NCBI RefSeq assembly: GCF_014873945.1
Contig: NZ_JADBEC010000001.1
Location: forward strand, 248,001-312,000
DNA from: Rhizobium viscosum
GTDB taxonomy: Bacteria; Pseudomonadota; Alphaproteobacteria; Rhizobiales; Rhizobiaceae
Direction of reading: 5' to 3'
DNA length: 64,000 bases
Shown here: positions 23,716 through 41,683 of the stretch, one piece after another
How positions within the stretch are numbered: position 1 is the stretch's first letter
Layout: each line of letters opens with the position of its first letter
Position numbers and translations under genes: made by a program
The notes under the pieces: model-generated
Seen by the model: only the letters and a program-made list of their open reading frames with translations
Databases searched by the model: none
Told to the model about the DNA's origin: nothing

Positions 23716-23717
23716 TC

Positions 23718-24188: not shown

Positions 24189-24198
24189 GTCAGTTCCT

Positions 24199-27063: not shown

Positions 27064-27988
27064 AGCGACAATTGAATACGAAAAGCTCCAGAACAGCAGT
27101 CTGACAACCTGGCTTGGCTTGGTCTTCGGCAGCTGGGTCGGGCTGGCCTGGGCCAGCTTTATCTCCCTGCCGGTCGGCTTAGGCGTCGGGATTGTCACCG
27201 GAAGTATGTTGGGCGGCGTCCTGGCCGTCCCGCTCTGGGGAACGCTTTGGGGATTTACCGGCCTGTGGCGGCAACGCGAGAATGCGATCCGCAAACATGG
27301 CATCACTCTGCTGAAGGAGGAAGATCCCTTGGCCCAGCGCGTCTATGCACTGGCTGCCAGACTCGGCCTCAACACCCGGCCATGGGTCGGCACCATGCCC
27401 CACAACAACGCCTACGCCATCGGCGGCAGTCCCAATAATGCCCTGGTCGTCATCGGCCAACCCCTCATCGATACCTTGAGCGAACCCGAGGTGGACGCCA
27501 TCATCGGGCACGAGTTAGGTCATATTGCCAATAACGACATGCGCCGCATGGGCCTCGCCCGCTCTTTCCAAAACTCCCTGGTCTGGTATCTGGGGTTCTC
27601 CAAAACTCTCCAGCGCTGGGGCCGCTGGCTCCTCACCTGGTTTTCGGAATTGCTGGTCCTGCGGCTCTCGCGCAGCCGCGAATACTGGGCCGATGCCATC
27701 GGCGCCGCGCTCACCAGCAAGGAACATATGATTACCGCTCTGGAAAAGCTGCACAACGAGCCGGAACTGAGCGAATTCGAGCGTGAGCATGCCCGACTGA
27801 TGTTCCATGGCTTCGCCGAAGGTTCTTGGCTATGCACGCATCCAACCCTCGGTGAGCGACGGGCGGCTCTCGAAGCCGAGACCTATCTCGGGCTTCTTCC
27901 TGTCTTGAAGACCGCAAAAACAATTTCCGCGTCCTCAACCGTACCGCCGTCGGCCGAGAATATAGCCTATGCAAAGCAAAGCGACTGA
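27056..27988 (+). CDS. M48-family (HtpX-like) membrane metalloprotease
   Basis: A 310-residue protein with N-terminal membrane segments at about residues 17-70 (LGLVFGSWVGLAWASF, then VGIVTGSMLGGVLAVPLW). The zinc site is HELGH at 152-156, and the third ligand Glu lies in SREYWADAIGA near 218. It is translationally coupled to the coupling protein gene (8-nt overlap), an arrangement that suggests a role in element transfer or envelope remodelling rather than general quality control. Confidence 0.85.
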   Translation: MAEATIEYEKLQNSSLTTWLGLVFGSWVGLAWASFISLPVGLGVGIVTGSMLGGVLAVPLWGTLWGFTGLWRQRENAIRKHGITLLKEEDPLAQRVYALAARLGLNTRPWVGTMPHNNAYAIGGSPNNALVVIGQPLIDTLSEPEVDAIIGHELGHIANNDMRRMGLARSFQNSLVWYLGFSKTLQRWGRWLLTWFSELLVLRLSRSREYWADAIGAALTSKEHMITALEKLHNEPELSEFEREHARLMFHGFAEGSWLCTHPTLGERRAALEAETYLGLLPVLKTAKTISASSTVPPSAENIAYAKQSD

Positions 27989-28070
27989 TGCGCAGTCATT
28001 GTGACTATGGCCGCTGCGCTACGGTTAGGTGGCCAAGGGGTGTTTTCCGGATTCACTCCTAAGCATGAAA

Positions 28071-28394
28071 TCAGTGCCTATATTTCGACCGTACCTTCGC
28101 CAATGCCCTCGATAAGATCCTAACATCAAAGGGATCAGCAGCAACATCCCGTTCGAAACGTTTCAAATAGTTATGAAACCCGATCTTCATGACATCCAGC
28201 CCATCCTGATTCAAATCCTCCAGATACAACTCAATATCCATCCCTCCCGGGCGCCTCACCACCTCAGAGGCATCAAGCAAGAGATTATGTTCAACTAAGA
28301 AACTTCTTAGCGCTTCGCCGATTTTTATCGCTGCATCGCTAGTGAGATCTCCAGATCTCACTGGTACTATTGCTTTGTATAAAGTAATACTCAT
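28071..28394 (-). CDS. Candidate immunity protein for the exported toxin
   Basis: A 107-residue soluble acidic protein directly downstream of the exported toxin-like gene (4-nt overlap, ATGA). It has no signal peptide. Recognisable stretches are LRSFLVEHNLLLDASEVVRR and GMDIELYLEDLNQDGLDV. I know no family for it. Position, size and cytoplasmic location fit an immunity protein. Confidence 0.55.
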   Translation of the reverse strand: MSITLYKAIVPVRSGDLTSDAAIKIGEALRSFLVEHNLLLDASEVVRRPGGMDIELYLEDLNQDGLDVMKIGFHNYLKRFERDVAADPFDVRILSRALAKVRSKYRH

Positions 28395-29119
28395 CGCGCA
28401 CCATATGATATTTTCTTATCTTTTATGTCAACTCTCGCCGTTTCTGAGCTGATATCTTTAATTGAAATCAGCTTTCCCGTTTTTCTGTCTTTTATATACT
28501 CACCGCCGGAGTCTCGGATAGCTATCTCTTTTAACCTCTGAGCGGTTTTTGACGCCGTCGGCGACGTTGTCTCAACGATCCGCGTGACCTTGCCATCTTC
28601 TATGACGACGTGATCAACCCGTCGGCCCTGGTTAGTAATAGGATCAAGCACTTTCTTGCCATTCTTATCCACTATAAGTGTTTGATTTTGTACGATCGCA
28701 TTTGGATTTCCAGCTTTCAAATCGGCTTCGACCATCCGCTCCCGGATGCGGCCGTCTAGCGCATTCTTCACGATCTGCTGAGCAGCCTTGGTTGTGTCGC
28801 GTATTGCTTCGCCAACGCCGAAGGCCGTGCGATTCGACGTTTTGGCAATCGAACTCAGTGCCTTGCGACCGAAAGAACTCGCGCCGATATGCTCCTTCGG
28901 CCTTTCGCCGGCTTTGGGCTCGATCTTCCCTCTAAATTTAAGGCGAACGAAATCTAGCTGGATGTCATGATTTGCTGGCGTTTTATGAAGCTGGCCAGGA
29001 TCGAAGAGACGACCGCCTGAAGGTGCCGTGGGATAAGCGCCGACAGCTTGACTACCCAGCAGTGACACAATTAATAATAGAAATACAAAAAGCGGGAATA
29101 CTCCGCGACTTTTCCTCAT
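28391..29119 (-). CDS. Exported toxin-like protein with restriction-nuclease-type C-terminus
   Basis: A 242-residue protein starting at ATG 29119 (AAGGAAAT upstream), with signal peptide PLFVFLLLIVSLLGSQAVGA. The C-terminal 100 residues read QNQTLIVDKNGKKVLDPIT, RRVDHVVIEDGKVTRIVETT and SPTASKTAQRLKE. This is the D...E-x-T/K layout of restriction-fold (Tox-REase-like) toxin domains in polymorphic toxins. The middle (IGASSFGRKALSSI and following) could be a delivery region. Coupled to a small downstream gene, it looks like an exported toxin and immunity pair. The nuclease call is pattern-based. Confidence 0.55.
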   Translation of the reverse strand: MRKSRGVFPLFVFLLLIVSLLGSQAVGAYPTAPSGGRLFDPGQLHKTPANHDIQLDFVRLKFRGKIEPKAGERPKEHIGASSFGRKALSSIAKTSNRTAFGVGEAIRDTTKAAQQIVKNALDGRIRERMVEADLKAGNPNAIVQNQTLIVDKNGKKVLDPITNQGRRVDHVVIEDGKVTRIVETTSPTASKTAQRLKEIAIRDSGGEYIKDRKTGKLISIKDISSETARVDIKDKKISYGAR

Positions 29120-29143
29120 GCGGATTTCCTTACAAATAGACCG

Positions 29144-29770
29144 ATGCCAGTAGTATCGACCATCACCAAATATTTAAGCCGCCCGCTCCAAATTTTCATT
29201 TCCGCAGCTACAGATATCATTCTTGTCTTTCAAAGCAGCATATTCATAGGAATATTCGTTGCATTTTTATATCTTCTCGCAACACTTTTTGGCATCTGGA
29301 TCGGGGATACCTTAAATGATCTTCTGGAAATTCCGCTAACATTGATATCTTTGGCACTGCCAACTCCTACCGATATGGTGTTCGATATCGTTTCTTATCT
29401 ATTCTTGATGTGGCTCGGCCTAACTTTGATGTTCTTCCTTGTCAGGACTCTGTTGCGAGCGCTTGTCTGGTGCGCTTACAGCCTCAAGCTCTCCGGCACC
29501 GTTTCAGCTCTCGTGGTCATCGGAACATTGTGCACCGCAGGTTTTCTCTTTCTACTAATGTGGCCGGACGAATATGGAGGGGATTGGCTTACCATCACCA
29601 CCGGATACGCATTGATGCTTGCCCTTATTGCTTTGAGCTTCGCTCTTTGGACTTGGAACCGATACCGAGTGAACAAGCGACTGAAAGCCAGGCTGTTCGA
29701 CCACGAAGTGGGCGGGAGCCTATATCACCTTTCGTCTTTCCGCGATTTTTCTGACTTGAGGACCATATGA
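29144..29770 (+). CDS. Multi-span membrane protein, first gene of a membrane operon
   Basis: A 208-residue protein with about four transmembrane segments (centred near residues 40, 90, 125 and 155; for example IGIFVAFLYLLATLFGIW and ALVVIGTLCTAGFLFLLMW) and a basic C-terminal tail. No family recognised. Its start lies only 24 nt from the divergent toxin start, so the promoters of both must overlap coding sequence, or the true start is elsewhere. The next gene overlaps by 4 nt. Confidence 0.6.
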   Translation: MPVVSTITKYLSRPLQIFISAATDIILVFQSSIFIGIFVAFLYLLATLFGIWIGDTLNDLLEIPLTLISLALPTPTDMVFDIVSYLFLMWLGLTLMFFLVRTLLRALVWCAYSLKLSGTVSALVVIGTLCTAGFLFLLMWPDEYGGDWLTITTGYALMLALIALSFALWTWNRYRVNKRLKARLFDHEVGGSLYHLSSFRDFSDLRTI

Positions 29771-31149
29771 AAGCAAAAGTGAGTGCGGATTCCGTCCGCA
29801 CAAAGTTGCGAGTCATCGCTCGGGCACAAAAGGATGCCGCCGACGAACTGCCGGAAACTACTGCGACTACGATCGGCACTACGGAATCGAGCATCATTGA
29901 ACATTGCCAGGATCTTCTTGCGAATGCTGAAAATGATGCAAGAAACGAAATCAAGACAATCGGCGCGCGCTTCTCCGCTACCTCTGTTGACCATGGGCGC
30001 CTGACAAACGCACGGGTTGACTTGACGAATGCAGTCGAGGCTGCCTTCAGCACTCGCCGCTTCGAAATATCAGAAGCAGCAACACGTATTCAGAGAGCCC
30101 GCAGGGAGTATCTTCACTTTAGACGAAAACATAATCGGGAGTATGAAGCGGAATACCCGCAGGCCATGCTGCTTTTTATTGGGATCATCGCTTTCATGGT
30201 CGTTTTGGAATCGGCCGCAAATGCGATGTTTTTCGCCCAAGCAAGCGACACGGGCTACCTTGGCGGGATCTCAACCGCGGCGTTGATATCGCTGGTGAAC
30301 GTGGCATTGGGCTTGCTGGTTGGCGTAATTGGATTCCGTTATATTGCTCACAATAACCACGCACATAAAGTCTGGGCTATTCCCCTGACCCTCGCCATCT
30401 TTTGTGGCGACTTCTGGTTCAACATGGTTGTCGCCTACTATCGAGACTCCCTTTCCAGAGACCCGACTGCCGAATTAACTGAGGTTATTTCTTTCAATAT
30501 AATTGAGCTATTCAACGGTCGGACGTTCCATTCATTGATGCTCCTAATTATCGGCGCGACAATATTTCTGGTTTCTTCCTATGAAGGCACAAAACTGTTG
30601 GGGTCCTATCCGGGTTACAGCCGTCGCCATCGTAAATTAACTGAAGCCGAAGTCGCAATGAGCAATCTTAAAGATGACCTCAGAGACGATCTTCAGGACG
30701 CTCTTGACAGCCACAGCGAGCCGCTAAAATCGCTGATCGTTGAAGCGCAATCGGTTCGCGCAAGGCAACTGCAGGCTAAATCTGAGCTGACCGGCGTAAT
30801 ATCACATGTGGGAAGCCTCCAAAATTCTATACAGGAAGTTTGCCGTCAACTCGTCAACGACTATCGAGCCGAAAACCGGTCTATCCGACAGACACCAGCG
30901 CCTCGCTATTTCTCAGAAACGCCCACGCTGCGGCATGCAGATCTTAACGCTGACGTTGCTGCCTTGCTTCGGCATGCGGATGAAGTAGCAAAATCTTGCG
31001 AGGAAGTGGGGGTCAAAGCGGAAGACAACCTTCGCTATTTTCAAGATTTGATCGTAAAACGGCTGGAGAATATTGATGATTTTGCTAGGGCGGCAGAAAT
31101 CGAAGGACAAGCGAAGGCAGATGCGGAATCGGCCGCGCTCCAAGGTTAG
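29767..31149 (+). CDS. Large membrane protein with coiled coils, second gene of the membrane operon
   Basis: A 460-residue protein from ATG 29767 (GAGGACC upstream). Residues 1-125 are helical and coiled-coil-like. Residues 130-285 hold four membrane segments (MLLFIGIIAFMVVLES, LISLVNVALGLLVGVIGF, VWAIPLTLAIFCGDFWF, LLIIGATIFLVSSY). The last 170 residues are again helical. A cytoplasmic-coil, membrane, cytoplasmic-coil layout recalls anti-phage membrane complexes such as ZorA-like proteins, but I see no MotA/TolQ signature. Function unknown. Confidence 0.65.
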   Translation: MKAKVSADSVRTKLRVIARAQKDAADELPETTATTIGTTESSIIEHCQDLLANAENDARNEIKTIGARFSATSVDHGRLTNARVDLTNAVEAAFSTRRFEISEAATRIQRARREYLHFRRKHNREYEAEYPQAMLLFIGIIAFMVVLESAANAMFFAQASDTGYLGGISTAALISLVNVALGLLVGVIGFRYIAHNNHAHKVWAIPLTLAIFCGDFWFNMVVAYYRDSLSRDPTAELTEVISFNIIELFNGRTFHSLMLLIIGATIFLVSSYEGTKLLGSYPGYSRRHRKLTEAEVAMSNLKDDLRDDLQDALDSHSEPLKSLIVEAQSVRARQLQAKSELTGVISHVGSLQNSIQEVCRQLVNDYRAENRSIRQTPAPRYFSETPTLRHADLNADVAALLRHADEVAKSCEEVGVKAEDNLRYFQDLIVKRLENIDDFARAAEIEGQAKADAESAALQG

Positions 31150-31906
31150 CCGAGCGAACCTGGCAGGCGCTTTTTTGCTGATAGTCGCCTTCGCCATCGC
31201 TGCCGCCGTCGTCTACGCAAATATAATGTTGCAACCTGCGCCGCGCGGCGAGGCGGACCTCTGCCCCCTGTCGGGCGCAAAAGGTTTGGAAATCCTCGTC
31301 GTCGATAAGTCAGATCAGTGGAACAATGCGCAGGTAAACCGGCTGGCGCGGGTCATCAACACTTTGAAGGACGAGATCCCCCAGGATTACAAGCTCAGTA
31401 TTTTCACCTTTCAAGATAAAGTTGAATACGGATTTCCCCCTATTTTTTCCGTTTGCAGTCCGGGACGCGGGCAGGAGACTAGCTTTTGGTATGGTAACCC
31501 TGAGAAAGTTCAACGCAAATTCGCACAGATGTTTGGAACCCCATTATCAACCGTCTTGAGCGAGTTGCAAAAGCCAGCAGAGGGCACAGAGTCGCCCATT
31601 TTAGAAGTGCTGGCAGATATAACAGGACGGGAAGAGTTTTATTCGGTGCAGGGGATCCACCAAATAATTCTTATTTCGGATATGCTACAGAACACGGAGC
31701 TTCTGAATTTGTTCTCTCAATCCGGAGATAATGTGGATTCGGCAAAGGTCAGCCAGGAGGCTGGCGCGCGGTCATTCGATGAGTTTTCTCTAAGGGTCTA
31801 CCAAATTAAAGGAAAGTATTCACAGAAGCAGCTCGATAACGCCAAAGCATTTTGGTCGAAATGGGCCACTTTCCATAAGGTAAAACTCGACTGGCTCTAT
31901 TTGTAA
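31076..31906 (+). CDS. Membrane-anchored VWA-like protein, third gene of the membrane operon
   Basis: A 276-residue protein from ATG 31076 (GGAG 8 nt upstream; ATG 31121 is an alternative), overlapping the previous gene by 74 nt in another frame. After a basic stretch it has one signal-anchor (AFLLIVAFAIAAAVVYANIM), then a periplasmic Rossmann-like domain (KGLEILVVDKSDQWNNAQV, YKLSIFTFQDKVE, IHQIILISDMLQNTELL). The DxSxx pattern is a degenerate von Willebrand A metal site. With the two upstream membrane proteins it forms a compact unit of unknown function. Confidence 0.65.
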   Translation: MILLGRQKSKDKRRQMRNRPRSKVSRANLAGAFLLIVAFAIAAAVVYANIMLQPAPRGEADLCPLSGAKGLEILVVDKSDQWNNAQVNRLARVINTLKDEIPQDYKLSIFTFQDKVEYGFPPIFSVCSPGRGQETSFWYGNPEKVQRKFAQMFGTPLSTVLSELQKPAEGTESPILEVLADITGREEFYSVQGIHQIILISDMLQNTELLNLFSQSGDNVDSAKVSQEAGARSFDEFSLRVYQIKGKYSQKQLDNAKAFWSKWATFHKVKLDWLYL

Positions 31907-32013
31907 TACGTTTTACTTTTGGAGCATAGAGTTTCGCTCGAATCTCGGGCACACAGAATGGCCTTTCGGTGCATGTCCTGGCGGGAATAAATCGACGGGC
32001 AGCAGCGCATTTC

Positions 32014-32475
32014 CTAGCGGCTTCTCTGCCAGTCCGAATACTCTTCCGGCTCCACATCGTCCCGATGCATCTCGGTCAACATACGTTCTTCGCCCTCATC
32101 ACGCCGGTCATGGTCTTCCTGTCGATGTTCTTGGTCTGGTTCCTCGATATGAGGGCGCAACCAATCAAGATAGTCGACCGGAGCCAAGGGTAGCCGCTCG
32201 ATCAGTGTGGAAGCCACTCCCTCCTCACGTTCCAGTTCGCCTTGTTCACGAGCACGATTGGCAAAGTCTTCCAATCGTGCCTCGACCTTACCAAGATCGT
32301 ACATATACCCCAGTTGCGCATTGAAGCGGTCCCGGAGAAACGCAATGGTTCGTCTCGGATCGTCGCCGGCGCCGAGCCCCTGAACGCACCGTTCCATCTC
32401 ATCGTCGATATCCTGAATCTGCGTCTCCAGAGCTTGGGCGCGCTCCTGGAGCTGTTTCAGCTCGTTCTCGGTCAT
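32014..32475 (-). CDS. Coiled-coil accessory protein of the mobilisation cluster
   Basis: A 153-residue very acidic protein with an N-terminal coiled coil (ELKQLQERAQALETQIQDID) and a charged tail (EHRQEDHDRRDEGEERM). It is the last gene of the operon running from the MobA relaxase, 29 nt after the previous stop. Its role is unknown; a relaxosome accessory or oriT-binding function is possible. Confidence 0.6.
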   Translation of the reverse strand: MTENELKQLQERAQALETQIQDIDDEMERCVQGLGAGDDPRRTIAFLRDRFNAQLGYMYDLGKVEARLEDFANRAREQGELEREEGVASTLIERLPLAPVDYLDWLRPHIEEPDQEHRQEDHDRRDEGEERMLTEMHRDDVEPEEYSDWQRSR

Positions 32476-32504
32476 ACTGCGATGCTCCGGCCGTCGCCGG
32501 TTCC

Positions 32505-32846
32505 CTAGTGGATGTGGTGATAGGCAGGCAAGTGTTCGGGTTGATCCTGGATATCGGCAATCAGATAAGCCCGGAGTTTTTCTCCGGAATCGACCAGTTT
32601 CTGCGCCTGGGCGTGAAAGTATCGTGCTTCCTCGCGCAGATGGTCATCAACTGTAGCGTCTGCCTCGGCCAGCGCCTGGCATTTGCTCCAGAATGCGAGT
32701 TTCTTGCGTCGCCGGATCAGATCGGTTTCCAGCCACTCTAATTCGCGCCGCAAGCCAGCGCGACGCTCGTCGCTCAGCGGCTGAATTCCAAAGACGGACC
32801 CGGTATGAACTTTTCCCATGGAGACATGATGGGACGGAAGGCTCAT
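32505..32846 (-). CDS. Helical accessory protein of the mobilisation cluster
   Basis: A 113-residue protein, largely helical (RRAGLRRELEWLETDLIRRR and EEARYFHAQAQKLVDSGEKL). It starts at 32846, two nucleotides after the relaxase stop at 32849, so it is translationally linked to mobA. MobC/MobB-type accessory proteins occupy this place in many mobilisable elements; no direct homology is claimed. Confidence 0.6.
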   Translation of the reverse strand: MSLPSHHVSMGKVHTGSVFGIQPLSDERRAGLRRELEWLETDLIRRRKKLAFWSKCQALAEADATVDDHLREEARYFHAQAQKLVDSGEKLRAYLIADIQDQPEHLPAYHHIH

Positions 32847-32848
32847 TC

Positions 32849-33934
32849 TTACAAGCCCCGCGTGCGATCGATTTCCTGTTCGCGCGGCCGTTCCGCCGGT
32901 TCCGGCGCCTCGCGACCCGGCTCCTCGAGGTCAAGCCAATCGAGATGGTTTTCCCAGCGCTCCAAAACCTCTTGGTCCGCGGCGTCCTGTTGCGTCACAG
33001 GCTCATCGAGCCAGTCCAGCCTGTTCTCAGAAGCGAGACGGTAATCTGCAGCTTCGTCCTCGCTTAGCTCACGGCCATTCTGCTGGTCGACAGCTGCCCG
33101 CGCCTCAGCCATGTCTCCCGTGAGCTCCGGTTCGGCAGGGCGCGCAGGCGCGCTCTCCATGTCATGAATCATCCGCTCTTCCGCCGCCGCCAGCTCGCGG
33201 GGGTGGATCGGATTCCCATCTGGGTCCGGAACAGGTAAATCGTCTTCTGGTTCTCGCGGCATGATTGGTGGTCTCCGTTGCTGTATACCGGCGCGTCGCG
33301 CCCGTCGTTCCTCTGGGTTCGGACCTCTATGCTCACCCGGCGTCTGTTCCATCTGGCGCTTCGCATAACTGCGGCTGTCGATCGTCACCGTCACACCGGC
33401 CTTGCCTAAGGCGGTATTGGCAACTCTGGCCCAAAGGGTCCTCGCCTCGATGACAAAGGGGCGACCATCCGCGCTGCGGATCTTGGGCCCGAAGCCATCT
33501 TCGGTGACCACCCGGGTGGTCAGCAGGAGATGGACGTGCGGGTTATGTTGGGTGCCGTCATCGTGTATGGCCAGGTCGGCAATGAACCCTTTGGCCGTGT
33601 AGGCGTCGGCCATGGCACGGGCCACGGCAAGCCAGGCGCTGCGCGGCAGTTCGCGCGGCAACGCGAATTCCAGCTCTTTGGCCAGGCGAGCATCCTTACG
33701 TTTTTCGGCGGCTTCGACGGCATTCCACAGCGCCGCGCGATCAGCCATCCAAGCCGGAGCTCCTGGAGGAAGGCGGATTTCCTTGGCAACGACATCGCGC
33801 CGTCCGCCGAACACTGACATTCGCTCCTCAGCTTCGTTGGGCAGCGTCTCCCCTGCCCTATAGGCGGCAGCGGCGAGGATCGAGCGACCGTCACTGCGGC
33901 TGATGTTCTTGATATGCAGGTGGTAGATAGCCAC
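32849..33934 (-). CDS. mobA: MobA/MobL-type relaxase (MOBQ class)
   Basis: A 361-residue relaxase. GTG 33934 is chosen (AGGAGAGG upstream), giving the usual N-terminus of the family, AIYHLHIKNISRSDGRSI, with the catalytic Tyr near residue 4. The HUH histidine motif is HNPHVHLLLTTR near residue 130. The C-terminal 130 residues are acidic and lack the primase domain seen in some MobA proteins. It would nick the candidate oriT about 100-160 bp upstream and lead the strand through the coupling protein. It is the first gene of a three-gene mobilisation operon. Confidence 0.88.
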   Translation of the reverse strand: MAIYHLHIKNISRSDGRSILAAAAYRAGETLPNEAEERMSVFGGRRDVVAKEIRLPPGAPAWMADRAALWNAVEAAEKRKDARLAKELEFALPRELPRSAWLAVARAMADAYTAKGFIADLAIHDDGTQHNPHVHLLLTTRVVTEDGFGPKIRSADGRPFVIEARTLWARVANTALGKAGVTVTIDSRSYAKRQMEQTPGEHRGPNPEERRARRAGIQQRRPPIMPREPEDDLPVPDPDGNPIHPRELAAAEERMIHDMESAPARPAEPELTGDMAEARAAVDQQNGRELSEDEAADYRLASENRLDWLDEPVTQQDAADQEVLERWENHLDWLDLEEPGREAPEPAERPREQEIDRTRGL

Positions 33935-34029
33935 CAGCCTCTCCTCGGCACGGACGGGGTCCAGGGGTATCCCCTGGCGCACTTGCCGGTTTTCTCCAGA
34001 CGCCGTGCGGCTGGTCAAAAAACCGTGCA

Positions 34030-34092
34030 ACGCATCGCCACTTTTTGCTCAATGCGTACACATTGGGCGATGCGTAGGTGCGCTGTACGCAT
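34030..34092. other. oriT: Candidate origin of transfer (oriT)
   Basis: Directly upstream of mobA are two interleaved inverted repeats: ACGCATCGCC (34030-34039) with GGCGATGCGT (34066-34075), and ATGCGTACA (34052-34060) with TGTACGCAT (34084-34092). Position next to the relaxase start and nested inverted repeats are typical of oriT. The nick site cannot be placed. Confidence 0.6.
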
Positions 34093-34174
34093 CATACAAG
34101 GAGGCGTTGATTTTCTTCAAGATCAGTAACAACGGCAAATGATGTCAACCGGCTGGATTTAGCAACGGAATTGC

Positions 34175-34203
34175 TTCTCAACCACGTGAATATCGGTTGA
34201 GAA
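34175..34203. promoter_or_regulatory. Inverted repeat upstream of the rescue tRNA
   Basis: Arms TTCTCAACC (34175-34183) and GGTTGAGAA (34195-34203) are exact, 11 nt apart, ending 32 bp before the tRNA. It could be a regulator site or a weak terminator isolating the tRNA from the mob region. Confidence 0.45.
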
Positions 34204-34235
34204 TACCGGCTCTCTTTGTTAGCAGAGAACACCAC

Positions 34236-34526
34236 GCGGACGTGGTGGAATCGGTAGACACAAGGGACTTAAGACAAAATTGAGTGCACCGGCGGAAACG
34301 CCGGCTGTAGAACCGCTCAAAGTCGGGGAAACCTGTCACATGGCAATCCCGAGCCAAGCCTCGCAAGAGGAAGGTGTAGAGACTAGACGGGCGGCACCTA
34401 AGGCGAAAGCTAGGGTGAAGGTATAGTCCAGACCACAAACGCCGGGAGGCGGCGGCGAAAGCCGTAGATGGTACGAAAATCCCTCGGCCTTCGGCTATGC
34501 GGGTTCGACCCCCGCCGTCCGCACCA
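34236..34526 (+). tRNA. tRNA-Leu(UAA) carried by the island, interrupted by a group I intron
   Basis: The exons are 34236-34270 and 34476-34526. They fold into a complete tRNA: acceptor GCGGACG with CGTCCGC, D stem GTG/CAC, anticodon stem AGGGA/TCCCT, loop CTT-AAAA (anticodon UAA), a long class II variable arm, T arm GCGGG-TTCGACC-CCCGC, discriminator A and encoded CCA. It differs from the split host tRNA in the acceptor, D and T stems, so it is of foreign origin, yet its anticodon-arm region matches the island's inferred attP. With the host gene broken, it is the only intact tRNA-Leu(UAA) in the window and is expected to read UUA and UUG. Confidence 0.95.
34271..34475 (+). ncRNA. Group I self-splicing intron (205 nt) in tRNA-Leu(UAA)
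   Basis: The intron follows U34 of the anticodon and ends in G (34475), as group I introns do. It shows hairpin GCCGGC...(34290-34307), a P3-P8-type core with GACTAGACGG near 34382 and ATAGTCCAGACC near 34421, and GNRA-like loops. There is no open reading frame. The site (U34/A35 of tRNA-Leu UAA) is that of cyanobacterial and plastid tRNA-Leu introns. Known proteobacterial tRNA introns include tRNA-Ile of Azoarcus and tRNA-Arg(CCU) of Agrobacterium. By splitting the anticodon loop it also splits the integrase core sequence in the gene. Confidence 0.9.
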
Positions 34527-34669
34527 GCTACCCTGCCCAATGCCTTTTCTACCAATGCTACAGATTTTTCTGATTCAAGTTCGGCCCTTTGCGGCCAATG
34601 ATGTTTACTTAGAATATCGATGATAATGTCCTTTATCGCAGATAGGAGATTACATGATTAAGGTAGCTG

Positions 34670-34813
34670 ACGGTCACCGCTTACCTGAAAAACGGAGGCA
34701 CGCTGGAAATGGCCGCTAATATCGCGAACCACTCCTCGACGAGGACGACCCAGCTCTACGATCACCGTAGCGATGACGTCAGCCTGGACGAGATCGAACG
34801 AATTCTGATTTGA
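34670..34813 (+). pseudogene. C-terminal fragment of a tyrosine recombinase
   Basis: A 47-codon piece reads TVTAYLKNGGTLEMAANIAN, then HSSTRTTQLYDHRSDDVSLD and a short end, stopping at TGA 34811. This is the His...Tyr end of a XerD/transposon-type integrase, with H-S-S-T-R-T-T-x-L-Y. The upstream frame is closed by a TAG next to it, so only the end survives. It is a trace of an earlier insertion beside the rescue tRNA. Confidence 0.75.
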
Positions 34814-34820
34814 GGACAAT

Positions 34821-35189
34821 ATGGACGACCAGCAACTACTGGATATCGCCCGCCAGGCCTTTCTGGACGCGAAGGAGGAAATTCGGCGTTTGCGTAACAA
34901 AATCGCTCACGACACCTGCCCACTCGCAATTGGTGATCGGATTACGATCGTTGACGGGGCGAACGAGTACGACGGCATTGTTACATCCATATCCAGCGCA
35001 GCCGACAAGCGAGAACTGCTGGATCCCGTGGTTGGCCTGGCGTCGGGTTGGTCAGTGCAGGGTCCAAAGGTCAAGAAAGATGGCGAGAGGAGTAAGCATG
35101 GCTTTGGCCTGTCCAGCCTTGAAGCTGTGCTCACCAATGGAAAATGGGTCGTCACGCGGCAGTCGCTAAACGATATATTTGGGATCTGA
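34821..35189 (+). CDS. Hypothetical protein
   Basis: A 122-residue protein with an N-terminal helix (LLDIARQAFLDAKEEIRRLR) and a beta-rich remainder (IGDRITIVDGANEYDGIVTS), possibly an SH3-like fold. It starts 7 nt after the recombinase fragment. No family recognised; it might be a small cargo gene of the mobilisation region. Confidence 0.5.
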   Translation: MDDQQLLDIARQAFLDAKEEIRRLRNKIAHDTCPLAIGDRITIVDGANEYDGIVTSISSAADKRELLDPVVGLASGWSVQGPKVKKDGERSKHGFGLSSLEAVLTNGKWVVTRQSLNDIFGI

Positions 35190-35459
35190 CGAGAACTGCA
35201 GAATCTGCACCGCTTCATTTGTGAATTCGGGCTGGGGGAGGATCGCTGCGACTAGTGAGCGCTCCTCTCCCCGACCTTTACCCCGTAAGGAGCAAAACCC
35301 TTAGGGGCGTTGCCCCTCGCGCCGGCAAGGGGGCGGTTCCCGAGGCGCTGCGCTTGTGCGCCCGCCGCCTGATACCCTTGCCCTTGCTACCCCAAACCTC
35401 GCCCGTCAGGCAGGGTTGCAGGGGATTCTGCTCCTGCTTTTTGACGGAAGGAACGACGC

Positions 35460-36326
35460 TTACGCGGGAGCTGGCGCCTTGTTGAGATAGGCTCCACAGT
35501 TGTCCTTGAAGGGACAGGTCGGGAAGTCCGGTTGTTCGAACCAGACCCATGATCCACACTGGCCGCTGTTAAAGGACAACGGACGTTCCTGCGGGTTGAT
35601 GTAGCGCTGCAGCAGACGTCCATCGACCATGCCGCAGATCTGAAACACCGGCTTATCGCTCAGCGTCCCGTTCAAATGATGGAAGATGGTGCCCAGGAAG
35701 CGATTGACGCTCTCCGTCAGTTCTGTCAGCGCGCCAAAGACGTCATTGATGATCAGTGGTTTGTCGGCTTCTGTCAGGCCATGATGCATGTAGTTGACGA
35801 GATCTGCCTCAGCGTCCCACGATACATGGCCGGTCGAAAGATGGGTCAGCTCGTCGCGAAGGTTCACCAGCCGCTTGAACCAGGTTGCCTCACGAATGTG
35901 CTGCTTGAAGTGATCAGGGAAAGACCCTGTGAGCTTGTCGGGATCCTGGAACAGCCCCCGCGTCGAATCTTTAAACCCGCGCGTACCAGGGCTATAGATA
36001 GCCCGTAGCACCTTCACGGTGCAGTCGATCGACGAGTAAAGTTCGAGGAAAGAAGCCTCGATTACCGTTGCCAGCTCAGCGCCATTCTCAGCCGGCGAAT
36101 GACCGTTTTCCTCCAACTGCTGATGGTCAATCGCCAGCCCGGGCTTGAGCTTCACAGCCAGGCTTTGCAGACGCAGTGCCTTCTCGAAATGCGCCCCGAC
36201 GCCAACGACGGCACGGTGGTCGCGTTTCTCCAGCTTATAGGTCTCGCCGTAGTATTTCCCGAAACGCGTGACCTCCCCCCAATACTCGGGGGCAAACATG
36301 AGAAGAAGGGGTGCGACTTTGGGCAT
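35460..36326 (-). CDS. HEPN-like protein of unknown function
   Basis: A 288-residue soluble protein. Around residue 155 it reads FKRLVNLRDELTHLSTGHVS, an RDxxxH motif on a helix as in HEPN-type RNases. The C-terminal 60 residues hold cysteines (FQICGMVDG, GQCGSW, TCPFKDNCGAY) that may bind zinc. It stands alone between the mob region and the Pycsar pair. A role as a defence ribonuclease is suggested by motif and setting only. Confidence 0.55.
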   Translation of the reverse strand: MPKVAPLLLMFAPEYWGEVTRFGKYYGETYKLEKRDHRAVVGVGAHFEKALRLQSLAVKLKPGLAIDHQQLEENGHSPAENGAELATVIEASFLELYSSIDCTVKVLRAIYSPGTRGFKDSTRGLFQDPDKLTGSFPDHFKQHIREATWFKRLVNLRDELTHLSTGHVSWDAEADLVNYMHHGLTEADKPLIINDVFGALTELTESVNRFLGTIFHHLNGTLSDKPVFQICGMVDGRLLQRYINPQERPLSFNSGQCGSWVWFEQPDFPTCPFKDNCGAYLNKAPAPA

Positions 36327-36395
36327 GGATCATCCTGATAAGGGCCTCATCATATCCCAGAATTATATTTTTTGCTCCATCTCTAGGGCGCGCCC

Positions 36396-36509
36396 TCGCA
36401 TCTCAACCGCGACAAGTTCGCGAAGGACGGCGTCATCGTGCGCTCCAGCAATTACACCCTTTACGGCGATATGTCGGCGCGGGTGGCTTTGCGACCGGCG
36501 GACTTCTGA
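36396..36509 (+). pseudogene. Fragment of a UmuC-type Y-family DNA polymerase
   Basis: One plus-strand frame reads SHLNRDKFAKDGVIVRSSNY, then TLYGDMSARV, close to the SSNYxLYGDMSxRV segment of UmuC/ImuB-like polymerases, then stops at TGA 36507. No start or catalytic remainder is present. A leftover of a plasmid-type umuDC or imu locus. Confidence 0.6.
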
Positions 36510-36591
36510 AGGCTTGGGTACTGCGCAGTTTTGCTCGCCACACTACGCGACCCGATGGAACGACTAAGTTAGCGGCGGTTGGTTTGAGCAG

Positions 36592-37299
36592 CTAGTTGGA
36601 GACTGCCCACCAGTAAGTCGAACCATAGGCAGGGATGTCGTTCTGCTGAGTCCAGCTGAATTTTTTCCACATATCCTGCCGGGGATTGCCTCCATATTTG
36701 GCATCATCCCTCAACCGATTATAAGCGTCTTCCGTGATCCATGTCCGTTGTGGAAGCTTTATCTCAGTAAGCTTAGCCGCATAGTTGGCGGCTCGCCCGA
36801 CCCAGACAATGTCGTTATCGCCTCGAACGCCTGTTCGCGCAGCTCGTACCGGGCTTGTGTCGATGCCCACTACCTGGCTTACAGTGAAGGTGTTGCCTGA
36901 ATACTGGTTAGACAGAGCTGGGTTGATAACGTTCTGGACTGCCCAATTGATTTTCAATCCGCAGATCGCCGCATCCGAGGTTTGGGTGTTGCCGATAAAT
37001 ACTGCCATCACCCGATCGCCGTCGTAAGAGGTGATGACGCCCCCGCTATCGCGAATGATTTTCCCAGAGCAGAACAAGAACGTTTTGTAGATTTCAGCCG
37101 CTTTTTGCCATCCGAGGGTATCGACCATGTTCGTCGAGCCGGTAAGGTCTGCATAGAGCACCGTGGCACGATCGAATTCGACCGCATCATTCGACAGTTT
37201 CAGATCAGTTGGTGAGGGAACAACCTGCCCGGCCCGTGTCGCCCATTGCTCCCGGAACGTTTGAGCTGCGTGATCTTGAAGGTCTTTTAGCAGGCCCAT
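36592..37299 (-). CDS. pycC: Pycsar cyclase PycC (class III nucleotide cyclase)
   Basis: A 235-residue protein made of a single class III cyclase domain: RATVLYADLTGSTNMVDTL with the first metal Asp, SYDGDRVMAVFIGN with the second, and NDIVWVGRAANYAAKLTEI as the substrate-binding stretch. Pycsar cyclases make cUMP or cCMP on phage infection. It lies 3 nt after a gene for a cyclic-nucleotide-binding TIR effector, the defining two-gene layout of Pycsar. Which nucleotide it makes cannot be read reliably from sequence. Confidence 0.85.
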   Translation of the reverse strand: MGLLKDLQDHAAQTFREQWATRAGQVVPSPTDLKLSNDAVEFDRATVLYADLTGSTNMVDTLGWQKAAEIYKTFLFCSGKIIRDSGGVITSYDGDRVMAVFIGNTQTSDAAICGLKINWAVQNVINPALSNQYSGNTFTVSQVVGIDTSPVRAARTGVRGDNDIVWVGRAANYAAKLTEIKLPQRTWITEDAYNRLRDDAKYGGNPRQDMWKKFSWTQQNDIPAYGSTYWWAVSN

Positions 37300-37302
37300 T
37301 CG

Positions 37303-38217
37303 TTATCCGTTGTTTGGTCCCATTTCCATGATGTGATCGCGCAGCTTGTGGCAAGCGGGCGCCAGCTTAGCAGCCATGTCGTGTCCCGGCTCAAAGCGGT
37401 AAGGGATGGTGGTCAGGCCAGCCATATCGCTCGGAAGCCTGACCTTTTCGTCTCGCGGCTCCATGAGGATAGCCCGGCGGCGGCCGAGACGGCCCATGAA
37501 CAGGCCCAGCTCCAAGATGACGTTATCGCGTGGCGATGGCCATTCCTGCCCGCGATAGACCGTGGCGTCATCGCCGTGAGCGATCGCAATCGCAAAGTCG
37601 GAGTCGTCAACCGCCGCCTCAAGTGCGTCCATAGTGTAGTTGGCGACGCGAAAAACGCCGTCCGTCCATATCGTGCAGGTGAAAGGGTCGTGTTCAAAAG
37701 CACTCTGAATGGCACGCGCGATCGGCAGCCCTTCAACAGATGAAATGATGAACACGCGGATCTTATCCCGGTGCACATTCACCAGCTTGTTGCGCTCGAT
37801 CAGCCGGCGCGAAAGCTCTTGCGCGATCGTGCGGTAGAGGTGCGGAAAGAGGGTGGCGACCTGGTCAAACTCAGGTTCGGTTAGCTTTGCGACCACTGCA
37901 GATGTTTGAGCTACCACGCTCGCCGAGCGTTTTTGCGTCGGCTGAATCGCAGCCATTTCGCCAATGGTGTCACCCGGCCCGCGTGTTGCGACCGGACGGC
38001 CATTCACGACGACTTGGAAGGTGCCGGCAAGGATGAAGTAGATATCATTGCTGTCGTCGTCCTGCCGGATCAGTTCAAACCCGGCTGGATGTTCCTCGAT
38101 CGTGCAACGATCGGCCAATTCCGTGGCGACATCCTCTTTGCCCCTGACCAGTTTTTGACCCGCTAAAGCATCGATGCGAAGTCGGCGACCGTCATCGCCC
38201 TCAAAACGTTCTTTCAT
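37303..38217 (-). CDS. pycTIR: Pycsar effector: cNMP-binding domain fused to a TIR-like domain
   Basis: A 304-residue protein. Residues 25-125 form a cyclic-nucleotide-binding domain (DIYFILAGTFQVVVNG, GPGDTIGEMAAIQPTQKRSA). Residues 150-290 form a TIR-like domain (KIRVFIISSVEGLPIARAIQ, SPRDNVILELGLFMGRLGRR), with the probable catalytic Glu in ILELGLF. In known Pycsar systems, binding of cUMP or cCMP switches the TIR on to destroy NAD and kill the infected cell. It is the first gene of the operon and the cyclase follows. Confidence 0.88.
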   Translation of the reverse strand: MKERFEGDDGRRLRIDALAGQKLVRGKEDVATELADRCTIEEHPAGFELIRQDDDSNDIYFILAGTFQVVVNGRPVATRGPGDTIGEMAAIQPTQKRSASVVAQTSAVVAKLTEPEFDQVATLFPHLYRTIAQELSRRLIERNKLVNVHRDKIRVFIISSVEGLPIARAIQSAFEHDPFTCTIWTDGVFRVANYTMDALEAAVDDSDFAIAIAHGDDATVYRGQEWPSPRDNVILELGLFMGRLGRRRAILMEPRDEKVRLPSDMAGLTTIPYRFEPGHDMAAKLAPACHKLRDHIMEMGPNNG

Positions 38218-38618
38218 TTATCCCCCATCCATTTCGTGGGGAATTTAATGCAACCTTCGGACGAAGACAATCGATCGGCGGATTAGACGAACCGTCGTAG
38301 GGAGCTTCTGGCTGTCTGATTTGTGAGTTTGGCAGGAGGCCGGGTGGGGGGGAATTTCCTGAGGATGGGTGAGCACGTCGAGCACGGTCAGGACATCAGG
38401 ACGCGCGAGTATAGCAATTCCCCACTAAGCCACAGAAAAGAATGCATTTAAATATCACCCGACTGCTTTAATCAATTTCCAGTTACACCATTTCGTGGCA
38501 TGTGTTATGGTGAGTTTACAGGCAATAGAGCTATCTGACGCCGCACCAGCAATATCTAAAGCCTTGTTTTTATTGTATAAATTTCCTATATTAAGGTTGT
38601 CATTGAGGATAAAAGAAA
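38218..38618. other. Intergenic region, Pycsar promoter side
   Basis: About 400 bp that must contain the Pycsar operon promoter (right of 38217). AT-rich stretches near 38440-38600 could be promoter or leader for the hairpin array. I see no gene. Confidence 0.45.
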
Positions 38619-38871
38619 CAGCGTCCAAACCTGCAAGACCTTTTATCCATCGCCTGGCAGTGAGCAATGACCGGCTGGCGTCCAAACCCAGCCAAGTAAT
38701 GTCCGGTATTACGGAGGCGGCGTCCAAATCCGCCATTCCATACTGGAAACCCCGGCCGGATTCCAACCCCGGCCAAACTAATGCAGAGGCCCGGGCCGAC
38801 GGCTTCCAACCCCGTCGGTCCCGGATCCATCACTTGGCAGTGAGCATAACCAGCTGGGGTCCAAACCCAGC
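38619..38871. ncRNA. Array of six hairpins with a constant 9-nt loop; possible leader RNA
   Basis: Five strong hairpins and one weak one all carry a 9-nt loop of the form nnTCCAA[A/C][C/T]. Loops: 38622-38630 (3-bp stem), 38679-38687 (GGCTGG/CCAGCC), 38721-38729 (GGCGG/CCGCC), 38760-38768 (GGCCGG/CCGGCC), 38803-38811 (CCGACGG/CCGTCGG) and 38858-38866 (GCTGG/CCAGC). Stems differ in sequence but stay paired, which is covariation. Spacing is 39-57 bp. A 48-bp segment (38645-38692) recurs at 38825-38872 with changes. The array ends 24 bp before the next ATG. The minus strand would present TTGGA in each loop. Confidence 0.65.
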
Positions 38872-38894
38872 CTCTTCATAAGGATAGCAAAAAG

Positions 38895-39446
38895 ATGGCC
38901 CCGCGTAAAAAGATTGCAAAAAGACAGTTAGAGCTTCGAAACCGGCTATGGGCGGATCTCGATCTCGATACCAACGAAGACGAGCTGCTGTGGACCCGTC
39001 AGGTCTACAATGGCTTTACGACGTTGCCCAAGGCGATGCCCCTCATGCTTGGCATCATGGACGACCTCGCTGGAGGCCAGCCCGTCTCAGGAACCTATCT
39101 TGAGCTTTGGTGCCGGACATTCGACGATAATTTCGTGGTCCTGTCCAAACAGGAGGAAATCGCGTTCCATTCCGGCTTCAGCGGTCAGCGTGCTGTCCGA
39201 ACTTGGAAAGGCCGGCTCAAGCTTCTCGCCGAATTAGGGTTTATCAAGCTCGCAGCTGGTCCATCCGGAGATAGTAGCTACGCGCTGATCTTGAACCCCT
39301 ATCATGTCATCCGCAACCTGCATGCCGCCGGTAAGGGCGTTCGTCAGGACAAGTACAACGCACTGGTGGCACGCGCGGTCGAAATCGATGACGAGAGCCT
39401 GGCGCCGCCGCCTGCCCCGAAGGTCGCGGCCAAGCCTGCCGCATAA
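38895..39446 (+). CDS. Hypothetical protein downstream of the hairpin array
   Basis: A 183-residue protein from ATG 38895 (AAGGATAG upstream). It has a basic N-terminus (MAPRKKIAKRQLELRNRLW), a central region reading RAVRTWKGRLKLLAELGFIK that may be a winged helix, and an Ala/Pro tail (APPPAPKVAAKPAA). It looks like a plasmid-type replication, partition or DNA-binding protein, but I cannot name the family. The hairpin array would lie in its 5' leader if transcription starts upstream of 38619. Confidence 0.6.
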   Translation: MAPRKKIAKRQLELRNRLWADLDLDTNEDELLWTRQVYNGFTTLPKAMPLMLGIMDDLAGGQPVSGTYLELWCRTFDDNFVVLSKQEEIAFHSGFSGQRAVRTWKGRLKLLAELGFIKLAAGPSGDSSYALILNPYHVIRNLHAAGKGVRQDKYNALVARAVEIDDESLAPPPAPKVAAKPAA

Positions 39447-39606
39447 GGAATGGCGTCTCCCCGCTCCACTCCCGCCAGTGCTTCGCATAGTGGTGCGTCG
39501 TATTTCCGTATTTCAGTAAAATCACATTGTGGATTGCATTGGATTTGTTTGCCGACGGCGGCGGTCTGCTAGTAAATTCAAGACAACCGAAAGAGCTGCC
39601 CGACCC

Positions 39607-40521
39607 ATGACGCTATCCATGAAAGAATCCAGCGCGATTGCTGCGCTTGCAGGCCTCCTCTACGACTTTCTTCCTGGAAGTGGAAACAATGCGACAGCCT
39701 TTCCTCTAGCGGCCCAGAAAGTCGGAGTTGCCCAATACTGGCAACCTGGTAGCAAGCTGCCGTCCCTCACCCAGCTTCTGACGTTGACTCTGGAGCATCG
39801 TCGCAGCAGCTTCTGCCCTTTGATCCTCGAAATCGTCCGGCAGTCGATGACCTGGCGCGGCAAACGCGATCCCCTCACCCGCGCAGAGATCGATCAGCTC
39901 AACAAACTACTGCCGGGGGTTGGTTTCAAAATTCCGGATCTTCTGGAGCCCGAGTTCCTGGATACCTTTCCCGGCACTCCTGCGGCTGCACCAACACCGA
40001 CCGCCCCTACGACGCAATCACAGGCGGCGGATCCCGCCAAGCTGGCTGAGTTGAGCATCCGGATCCGTGATCTTGGATCCCTGGCACCGCAGGAGCGAGG
40101 TTTCGCGTTCGAGCGGTTCCTGCATGACCTGTTCGATGCCTACGGCCTGTCGCCGCGCGCATCGTTCCGTCCACGTTCCGGGGAGCAGATTGACGGCAGT
40201 TTCGAACTTGATGGCGACACTTACCTTCTGGAGGCGAAGTGGCATAGTGCACCAACGCCTGCTGCCGACCTCCATGTCCTGAATGGCAAGCTTAATGGCC
40301 GACCAACATGGTCGCGTGCGCTCTTTATCAGCTACGGAGGATTCAGCCCGGACGGGCTTGCCGCCTTCAATCAAGGCAAGAGCAGCCTGATATGTATGGA
40401 CGGCTTTGATCTCTACGAGACTTTGAGCCGAGGCCTGCCGCTTGATCGCGTTATCGCGAAGAAAGCACGTCGAGCGGTTGAAACCGGCCTTTGCCACGTC
40501 TCTGTGCGGGATCTCTTCTGA
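39607..40521 (+). CDS. Restriction-endonuclease-fold protein (Mrr-like catalytic domain)
   Basis: A 305-residue protein. The C-terminal half carries the PD-(D/E)XK layout: RGFAFERFLHDLFDAYGL (Glu helix), GEQIDGSFELDG (Asp) and TYLLEAKWHSAP (E-x-K), followed by SRALFISYGGFSPDGL and ICMDGFDLYE, as in Mrr-type proteins. The N-terminal 110 residues form a helical domain of unknown role, joined by a Thr/Pro/Ala linker. ATG 39607 is chosen tentatively; 39619 is possible. No methylase is adjacent, so it may target modified or foreign DNA. Confidence 0.8.
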   Translation: MTLSMKESSAIAALAGLLYDFLPGSGNNATAFPLAAQKVGVAQYWQPGSKLPSLTQLLTLTLEHRRSSFCPLILEIVRQSMTWRGKRDPLTRAEIDQLNKLLPGVGFKIPDLLEPEFLDTFPGTPAAAPTPTAPTTQSQAADPAKLAELSIRIRDLGSLAPQERGFAFERFLHDLFDAYGLSPRASFRPRSGEQIDGSFELDGDTYLLEAKWHSAPTPAADLHVLNGKLNGRPTWSRALFISYGGFSPDGLAAFNQGKSSLICMDGFDLYETLSRGLPLDRVIAKKARRAVETGLCHVSVRDLF

Positions 40522-40565
40522 GCTGCATGCGCATTTACGACGTTTCTTAAAATCGCATTTCTGCA

Positions 40566-40715
40566 TTAGCTGATGGTGCGCCAGACCGGCGCACCCACGA
40601 TCCACGCCAAGGCTATGAGCAGGAGGAGGCAGCCTGCCAGCACGAACACGGCTGCCAGCCCTCGCGCTTTGATCGTCACTCCCCAAATCGTCACTTCCAG
40701 CTCGTTTTTGTTCAT
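40566..40715 (-). CDS. Small single-span membrane protein (49 aa)
   Basis: An uninterrupted 49-codon frame from ATG 40715, with GAGGTAGGG just upstream. It encodes a soluble start (MNKNELEVTIWGVTIKARGL) and one membrane segment (AAVFVLAGCLLLLIALAWIV), then a short end. It shares layout with the next small membrane gene, and the shared TAAAATCGCA motif lies near its 3' end. Function unknown. Confidence 0.55.
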   Translation of the reverse strand: MNKNELEVTIWGVTIKARGLAAVFVLAGCLLLLIALAWIVGAPVWRTIS

Positions 40716-40867
40716 GGCCCTACCTCACATACGGTTTAGGAGAACCATGCACGACGATAGTTGTCGCCGCAAAGCACAGGTCTCAGAGGCCAAGCCTAAA
40801 CCGCGATTGCGCACCGTTAAGTGCGAATCGGCTCTGAAATACATCAATGAAAACAGTCGGCGCCATC

Positions 40868-40897
40868 GTCGTATTTACGTTTTTCTGTAAATACGAC
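40868..40897. promoter_or_regulatory. Perfect 11-bp inverted repeat
   Basis: GTCGTATTTAC (40868-40878) and GTAAATACGAC (40887-40897) flank the 8-nt loop GTTTTTCT. It lies 9 bp beyond the stop of the minus-strand membrane gene at 40906. Either an operator related to the other GTAAA-type sites nearby or a transcript-end hairpin without a T tract. Confidence 0.5.
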
Positions 40898-40905
40898 GAC
40901 AGGCC

Positions 40906-41256
40906 TTAGAACTTTGAGCGCCCACGTCGAGATTGATGGTCGTCTTCATCCGACTTGTAGACCAGGAACAAGCGATCCGCCCTTCCCTGCTCGTCACGCG
41001 ATACCTTCCGCGTGATCACTTTGCTGCGGAACGCCGCATCGACGATTTCGGCTTCGGCCATCCCGAGCTGCGCCACCAGGTGTAGGACAGTGCGCTGACC
41101 ACCGTCGTCGCCCATACCACGTTCGTCCTTCAGATACGCTTCTAGCCGCCGGCGCCGGCAGTAACGTGTCAGCTGGTAAGTGCAGAACGCCCAGACCGCC
41201 ACCACGGCCGTCAGGATCGAGGCTGCGTTGGCAATCAGATCGAGGGTTTCATTCAT
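40906..41256 (-). CDS. Small membrane-anchored protein with a cytoplasmic tail
   Basis: A 116-residue protein with an N-terminal membrane segment (NAASILTAVVAVWAFCTYQL), a basic anchor (RYCRRRRLEAYL) and a tail of about 75 residues that may be a winged-helix-like fold (LHLVAQLGMAEAEIVDAAFR). No family recognised. A TAAAATCGCAAAT motif lies 10 bp upstream of the start, suggesting control by a local regulator. Confidence 0.6.
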   Translation of the reverse strand: MNETLDLIANAASILTAVVAVWAFCTYQLTRYCRRRRLEAYLKDERGMGDDGGQRTVLHLVAQLGMAEAEIVDAAFRSKVITRKVSRDEQGRADRLFLVYKSDEDDHQSRRGRSKF

Positions 41257-41295
41257 GGCGAGTGTCCGTAAAATCGCAAATACAGAAAATCGTGT

Positions 41296-41589
41296 TTACG
41301 CTTTCGGCTTGATCGGGTCTTCGGCCGATTGCACGCATTTCGCTGCAACGAACTTCGCCCCGGGGCTATGGGTCAGAATTCCCTGCATCAGCGTCGGGCC
41401 GGCTGACGGCAGAGCGCCCTCACAGTCCGCAAGCGTCATGTCGGGCACGGATGGGTTATCGAAAGCCATCTGGGCCGGCCGGCCGCTGGCGTCAGTAAAA
41501 TCGACCACGATCCAGACCTTGTCGGATTTACCCGAACAGGCCGCCAGCAAGGCCGCCACTAGAATGGCGCCGCAATTGTATGACTTCAT
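41296..41589 (-). CDS. Small lipoprotein
   Basis: A 97-residue protein with signal peptide and lipobox (MKSYNCGAILVAALLAACSG, lipidated Cys18), then a short mature domain with cysteines (ADCEGAL, AAKCVQS). The palindromic TAAAATCGCA site at 41660-41683 lies about 70 bp upstream of its start and the related site at 41266 just beyond its stop. Function unknown. Confidence 0.7.
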   Translation of the reverse strand: MKSYNCGAILVAALLAACSGKSDKVWIVVDFTDASGRPAQMAFDNPSVPDMTLADCEGALPSAGPTLMQGILTHSPGAKFVAAKCVQSAEDPIKPKA

Positions 41590-41659
41590 GCGATGGAATC
41601 CCCCCTGAGATTGCCATTCCAGCAGAGACCGCTGACCGTGGCAAGACGGTAGGCAGCGG

Positions 41660-41683
41660 TTGCGATTTTCCGTAAAATCGCAA
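41660..41683. promoter_or_regulatory. Palindromic operator-like site (TTGCGATTTT / AAAATCGCAA)
   Basis: Exact 10-bp arms separated by CCGT. Half-sites of the same sequence (TAAAATCGCA or one base different) occur at 39517-39526, 40548-40557 and 41269-41278, all in gaps between small genes of this part of the island. The distribution suggests one DNA-binding protein controlling several of them. Confidence 0.6.

Follow-up and report, generated by a model that had tools for sequence, protein, structure and literature searches.

How can an integrating element carry a copy of the gene that its integrase attacks, and keep that copy from being attacked as well? The question is raised by a stretch of 64,000 nucleotides from Rhizobium viscosum (the window), where an island of 42.4 kb interrupts the host tRNA-Leu(UAA) gene in the anticodon arm and carries a tRNA-Leu(UAA) of its own, split in the same loop. 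A sequence-only reading had proposed that the island copy is a rescue gene and that its intron protects it from the integrase. We consider it probable that the island breaks the host gene and carries a replacement whose predicted self-splicing intron hides it from its own integrase. Judging from the sequence comparisons below, it is close to certain that the island copy is a rescue gene, and shielding, as the best reading of the comparison, is the likely role of the intron.

The island junctions are two direct repeats at 764-806 and 43188-43230, which are 95% alike and have a spacing of 42424 (Table 1). The host gene lies on the minus strand, its 3' half ending at 744 and its 5' half starting at 43253, and the acceptor strands of the two halves are complementary, so that the halves must once have been a single gene. 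The anticodon stem reads AGAGA..TCCCT at attR and AGGGA..TCTCT at attL, and these differences place the crossover between tRNA positions 29 and 41, that is, in the anticodon stem-loop. The whole tRNA is rebuilt at neither junction, because attR lacks the 3' end and attL the 5' end, and ARAGORN called no tRNA at either of them with introns off or on. Near attL, at 2831-4204, the island encodes another tyrosine integrase, which has an arm-binding domain. The island cargo at 1478-2683, 24199-25269 and 37303-38217 shows matches to the defence models Shedu SduA, Thoeris ThsB-like TIR and Pycsar TIR effector.

Table 1. Features of the island, in window coordinates
Feature	Position	Strand	Basis
Island, repeat to repeat	764..43230	.	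Direct repeats; Pfam for relaxase and coupling protein
attL: island joined to the 3' half of the broken host tRNA-Leu(UAA)	744..806	-	Direct repeat; sequence
Type IV coupling protein	25318-27063		Pfam
MobA/MobL relaxase	32849-34030		Pfam
5' exon of the island tRNA-Leu(UAA), ending at U34	34236..34270	+	ARAGORN with introns; sequence reading
Predicted group I intron, 205 nt	34271..34475	+	Rfam RF00028; ARAGORN; consensus fold of 32 genes
3' exon of the island tRNA-Leu(UAA), CCA included	34476..34526	+	ARAGORN
Tyrosine integrase, 407 aa, adjoining attR	41829..43052	-	Pfam PF00589; relatives beside tRNA-Leu halves
attR: island core copy joined to the 5' half of the broken host tRNA-Leu(UAA)	43188..43253	-	Direct repeat; sequence

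Regarding the island tRNA, ARAGORN in its default mode without introns found zero tRNAs in the window; with introns allowed it placed a tRNA-Leu(taa) with an intron of 205 nt at 34236-34526, and the Rfam match to a group I intron spans 34261-34446 (50.3 bits for a gathering score of 50, E 8e-10). Both programs thus agree with the sequence-only reading, which had seen here a tRNA-Leu(UAA) with a group I intron at the point of integration. The other particulars of that reading also hold: the exon bounds place the 205-bp intron after U34, the joined exons match the inferred attP at 26 of 26 bases, and the anticodon is that of the broken gene, UAA both in the junction halves and in the ARAGORN call. 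The intron lies inside the attachment core, between GACTT and AAAA. In an alignment of 32 of the intron-bearing genes, 34 of the 82 pairs of the consensus fold maintain their pairing through two-sided changes, among them pairs of the anticodon stem built by the exons; the 5' splice site is U.G (columns 36 and 50) in all 32 genes and the last intron base is G in every row. The intron is predicted to be a self-splicing group I intron, which would be removed from the RNA in the cell.

The other tRNA-Leu genes of the host assembly (48 tRNA hits) have the anticodons TAG, CAA, CAG and GAG. No second UAA gene was found in the assembly, where the UAA-gene pattern matched the broken attR half alone, and for this reason the integrated cell is likely to depend on the tRNA copy of the element. 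The same pattern gave 36 matches in 30 of 33 genomes with UAA-type islands, of which 33 were opened and the three others correspond to attR in L217, L223 and L164. An intact intron-free UAA gene was present in 2 of the 33 genomes (L251 and L297, both MAGs), the remaining matches being broken halves. Within the order, 24 of 397 genomes have a full-length match to the island tRNA, and in these 24 the pattern found no intact intron-free UAA gene, only three broken halves. Among 40 hand-chosen genomes lacking a full-length match, 37 gave one UAA pattern match each (matches unopened). The split gene is thus usually the only UAA gene found, and it would have to splice if UUA is to be read.

The Pfam PF00589 match of the integrase (22.4 bits) falls under the cut-off of 27.1, but the alignment of the family shows good conservation. 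Scanning named genomes with the integrase yielded 192 relatives, of which we used the best 80, and the target of each was read from the sequence upstream of the integrase, although at some CAA and UAG sites (e.g. L175, L178, L182) the core alone is visible and the tRNA half is absent. In most opened loci the integrase adjoins a tRNA-Leu half. Among these best 80 of 192, the target was tRNA-Leu(UAA) in 37 loci, tRNA-Leu(CAA) in 27 and tRNA-Leu(UAG) in 2; two more were of UAA type without a visible tRNA half (L166, L181), in 8 another tRNA stood whole beside the integrase, and 4 were unclassified. The integrase had zero matches in phage records and viral contigs; on plasmids 24 records matched, 5 of them over most of the length.

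An intron-split tRNA-Leu(UAA) was found in 32 of the 37 UAA-target loci, mostly directly after the integrase (three are cut by contig ends, L159, L164 and L189, and in L187 part of the 5' exon is masked). This largely bears out the expectation that all islands in tRNA-Leu(UAA) carry an intron-bearing tRNA-Leu, except that L212 and L216 show no rescue in the fetched sequence; the other three loci (L153, L161, L205) end too soon. Conversely, in the 8 loci with a whole target tRNA, ARAGORN called no tRNA-Leu in the 4 kb that follow the integrase, which suggests that the rescue accompanies disruption. A resident gene lying inside the island by chance can be ruled out, because unrelated hosts, too, have the gene next to the integrase. 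The role of rescue gene given to it by the sequence-only reading is thus well supported by the disruption of the target, by the lack of another UAA gene in the searches and by a layout that recurs across the family.

The 27 CAA-target loci behave differently, with 15 intron-free tRNA-Leu(CAA) genes, one intron-split (L193) and 11 without a rescue in the fetched sequence (L183, L191, L199, L202, L206, L209, L211, L214, L221, L224, L225), the last nearly all from Acidobacteriota. A tRNA(UAA) is also able to read UUG, so cells may be able to do without the CAA gene. In L193 (L193:11395-11715) the intron of the tRNA-Leu(CAA) rescue is apparently shifted to 33/34 (GACT, intron, CAAAATC); this shift by one base, which suits the CAA gene, leaves a U before the splice site. 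In two further samples of 385 and 398 genomes, 14 and 7 genomes had a match, some of them shared. They added five intron-split tRNA-Leu(UAA) loci (L266, L267, L269, L277, cut by a contig end, and L282, with a decayed integrase), one intron-free CAA rescue (L286), one intron-free UAG rescue (L278) and a possible UAA target without a rescue within 1.5 kb (L272). Many other matches in these samples adjoin a whole tRNA-Met, and one island beside tRNA-Met genes contains a decayed intron-bearing tRNA without the 5' exon (L280:531-806). The idea that every related island has the intron is therefore ruled out: 18 of the 54 scored rescues are intron-free. Such genes beside the same integrase had been named beforehand as evidence against the shielding role, and in part they are; 17 of them serve CAA or UAG, and the single UAA case (L181) has changed loop-closing bases. 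As a strict rule the earlier claim fails, since CAA islands mostly have intron-free rescues or none.

Some loci show further arrangements. At the attR of L152, L153, L154 and L269 the host 5' half is joined to a tRNA-like 3' half that carries CCA and has an acceptor strand mismatching that of the host; ARAGORN found no tRNA at these four sites, and the half may be what is left of an attP that used to restore its target. Few loci hold another integrase of the same family, as a remnant in L118 and as the neighbouring pairs L275/L281 and L286/L288, and reading the gap between L286 and L288 revealed no tRNA. We also considered the insertion of an element in the rescue tRNA of another, and saw no case of it.

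If the intron hides the target, the core bases should be compared between split and unsplit rescues. At locus L223 of one genome, G425, the minimal core that attL and attR have in common is GACTTAAAA, positions 30-38, and the shared core at these positions reads GACTT/AAAA. Among the intron-bearing genes, a set that includes resident and plasmid copies and one duplicate and in which our script sought these words, GACTT occurs in 56 of 56 with a readable 5' side and AAAAT in 55 of 55 with a readable 3' side; the masked L187 alone gave no 5' hit. Therefore, without the intron each of these genes would show the full core. At 30-31, GA is present in 62 of 62 natural tRNA-Leu(CAA) genes (9 of 71 pattern hits lacked a tRNA D-arm and were removed), whereas 5 of 11 lineages of island CAA rescues depart from GA (p 3e-5). 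Of the other CAA lineages, three have a base at position 32 that is not that of their own target and three are unchanged (L162, L175/178, L190); the latter present the target bases 30-34 unsplit, yet are thriving. L181, the one UAA rescue without an intron, has CACTTAAAATG against GACTTAAAATC at its own core site.

Taken by lineage, 7 of 15 intron-free island lineages depart at 30-31, against 0 of the 35 intron-bearing island rescues with a readable 5' side; these 35 form 24 clusters at 80% identity, and 7/15 versus 0/24 gives p 4e-4, where both tests assume an independence of lineages that is only roughly true and the rescues come from distant donors. The 15 lineages include the UAG rescues L188, L203 and L278 and the UAA rescue L181; L167/169/171, L175/178 and L228/229 were merged, each being one cluster at 80% integrase identity. 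L188, which differs at position 40 alone, was scored as unchanged at 30-31, and L286 was excluded because its own target site was not seen.

On a tree of the 54 integrases with a readable rescue (the other loci were left out), target and intron state are concordant in 52, namely 35 UAA split, 15 CAA intron-free and 2 UAG intron-free; the two discordant rescues are one CAA split and one UAA intron-free. Parsimony requires 10 changes of target and 9 of intron state, while shuffled intron labels need 15.3 on average and 11 at minimum. Three pairs of sister groups differ in both characters: L158/L164, L157/L175-L178 and L180/L167-L169-L171. Swapping of a module formed by attP and the tRNA could yield such joint changes without repeated intron gain, and as all the introns are related, the intron may have been gained in a single event.

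The split gene is also found away from the integrase. In 21 of the 24 order genomes our search found it without this integrase nearby. When 15 resident intron tRNAs were opened (L135-L149), one clear island relic appeared: in L149 (L149:10056-10572) a tRNA-Leu(UAA) 5' half lies around 216 bp upstream of the resident intron-split tRNA-Leu(UAA), with no integrase between, and this is likely to be a decayed island. Pfam found no integrase in 22 chosen ORFs near resident intron tRNAs. On plasmids, related intron-split tRNA-Leu(UAA) genes lie near aac(3)-IId (L108:6001-6299, in pCTX-M3, and L109:8001-8300). Out of 72,556 plasmid records 1284 matched, 1266 of them over most of the query, and the plasmid copy matched in 635 of 5426 complete E. 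coli genomes, with 589 of 670 places on plasmids. No annotated feature lies under the match in the five E. coli rows shown, and the plasmid table has no RNA genes.

A similar arrangement exists in a phage. According to the available part of PMC10865867, Gordonia phage Daredevil integrates at tRNA-Lys-TTT (a figure legend gives tRNA-Ile2-CAT instead), does not rebuild its target, encodes no tRNA of its own and makes clear plaques. We found in its genome a tRNA-Lys(UUU), missing from the annotation, that is interrupted at 34/35 by a group-I-like intron of 238 nt (L230:3879-4190; NC_048021.1 41820-42131) and lies in the gap that separates the integrase from the next annotated gene. When joined, its exons contain CGGACTTTTAATCCG, of which a second, unsplit copy near the integrase is the inferred attP (L230:3710). 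Rfam gave no group I match on this stretch, and the intron call is based on ARAGORN and on the likeness to the island introns, 75% over 127 query bases with the intron of our island. The integrase is unrelated to the island integrase, and here the intron sits at the same place in another tRNA. The clear plaques would argue against a working rescue in Daredevil, or may have another cause. Among 32 phage records that match the split tRNA, only two Daredevil records cover most of the length. In phages of the published type, the rescue of Fionnbharth and BrutonGaster differs from the inferred attP at pair 31:39, that of Mollymur, Bantam and DatBoi at 30 and 40, and in OneUp and SpeedDemon 31-40 are unchanged. 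A 735-kb uncultured phage record (LR756501.1, 190325-190533) shows a 74% match to the first 205 bases of the island tRNA.

These observations would fit together as follows. The island integrates in the anticodon arm and thereby breaks the host tRNA-Leu(UAA), which its own copy likely replaces. The intron in the same loop splits the shared core, which would stop recombination by the integrase, and splicing would remove it from the RNA in the cell. Intron-free relatives may reach the same outcome through changed bases beside the loop. The intron thus looks like one of two routes by which the target is taken out of the spare, and it is apparently no strict requirement.

Nevertheless, the intron might be a mere passenger: the tRNA-Leu(UAA) would have been taken up already split and its intron kept because exact loss is rare, with no role in immunity. 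The introns are one related set, the split gene lives also away from the integrase in most of those order genomes and on many plasmids, and CAA and UAG rescues manage without an intron, all of which this explanation accommodates well. We nonetheless regard it as unlikely, because intron and target change together around nine times on the tree (although module swapping could explain this), intron-free rescues diverge from the native bases beside the loop, the L193 intron has moved to suit a CAA gene, and Daredevil has its intron at the same place in a different tRNA with an unrelated integrase.

Shielding could also be directed against others, that is, against the integrases of rival elements or against nucleases that cut the anticodon loop. 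In the available text of PMC10865867 anticodon loops are used by many integrases, and tRNA-cutting defences are raised in its discussion. However, the spliced tRNA would still be exposed to a nuclease, and the loop-side changes of the intron-free rescues fall inside the core of the element itself, which makes this explanation improbable. That the intron gates the tRNA supply through splicing, so that UUA decoding tracks the growth state, seems very improbable to us: beyond the intron itself nothing speaks for it, gating would affect every UUA codon since the split gene is the sole UAA gene found, and CAA rescues have no intron.

Shielding from the element's own integrase therefore remains our preferred reading. 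It can be tentatively extended, and we think this wider form rather less than evenly probable: an element must hide the spare from its own integrase, either by rewriting the loop-closing bases or by splitting the loop in the DNA through a self-splicing intron; bacterial group I introns in tRNA anticodon loops would be kept and spread as shields at the DNA level, and the chromosomal intron-bearing tRNA-Leu(UAA) genes would be remains of decayed islands that replaced the gene. Such a role would offer a function for introns mostly regarded as neutral, it would explain how an element carries a copy of its own target, and it would give the idea of tRNA introns as guards against integration a form that is bacterial and can be tested. 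In addition, a tRNA search blind to introns can miss rescue genes, as seen in our window with default ARAGORN and in Daredevil, which was described without a rescue. By title and abstract we found no paper on integrating elements whose rescue tRNA has a self-splicing intron, in a search outside which most subscription journals lie; nor did we find in that literature a family of bacterial islands with intron-split rescue tRNAs, while rescue tRNAs on integrating phages are already known.

Regarding known systems, a group I intron after U34 of tRNA-Leu(UAA) occurs in cyanobacteria and plastids, that is, in the same gene and at the same position; there the gene is resident, whereas here it is a rescue gene on an integrating island. 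The rescue principle itself has been published for actinobacteriophages as tRNA-dependent lysogeny (PMC10865867). As far as the available text goes, both systems share a tyrosine integrase that targets a tRNA gene, a junction without a rebuilt gene and a cognate tRNA on the element; that element is a phage and the listed rescue tRNAs are intron-free, whereas ours is a genomic island with an intron-split UAA rescue. That system is also defined for temperate phages, and our island has a relaxase and a coupling protein and an integrase without phage or viral matches. Sinorhizobium meliloti prophages likewise break a Leu tRNA and bring their own copy (PMC11476347), but there it is tRNA-Leu(UAG), and the word intron is absent from the text available. 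Islander islands also enter tRNA genes site-specifically but, in the part of PMC4383910 available, restore the target, which is unrestored here. Finally, according to the available parts of PMC4390854 and PMC3293823, Randau and Soll proposed in 2008 that introns protect archaeal tRNA genes from integration. The likeness is that an intron at the attachment site would block recombination; the difference is that the archaeal proposal concerns host genes with protein-spliced introns, whereas here the gene is the element's own and its predicted intron is of group I.
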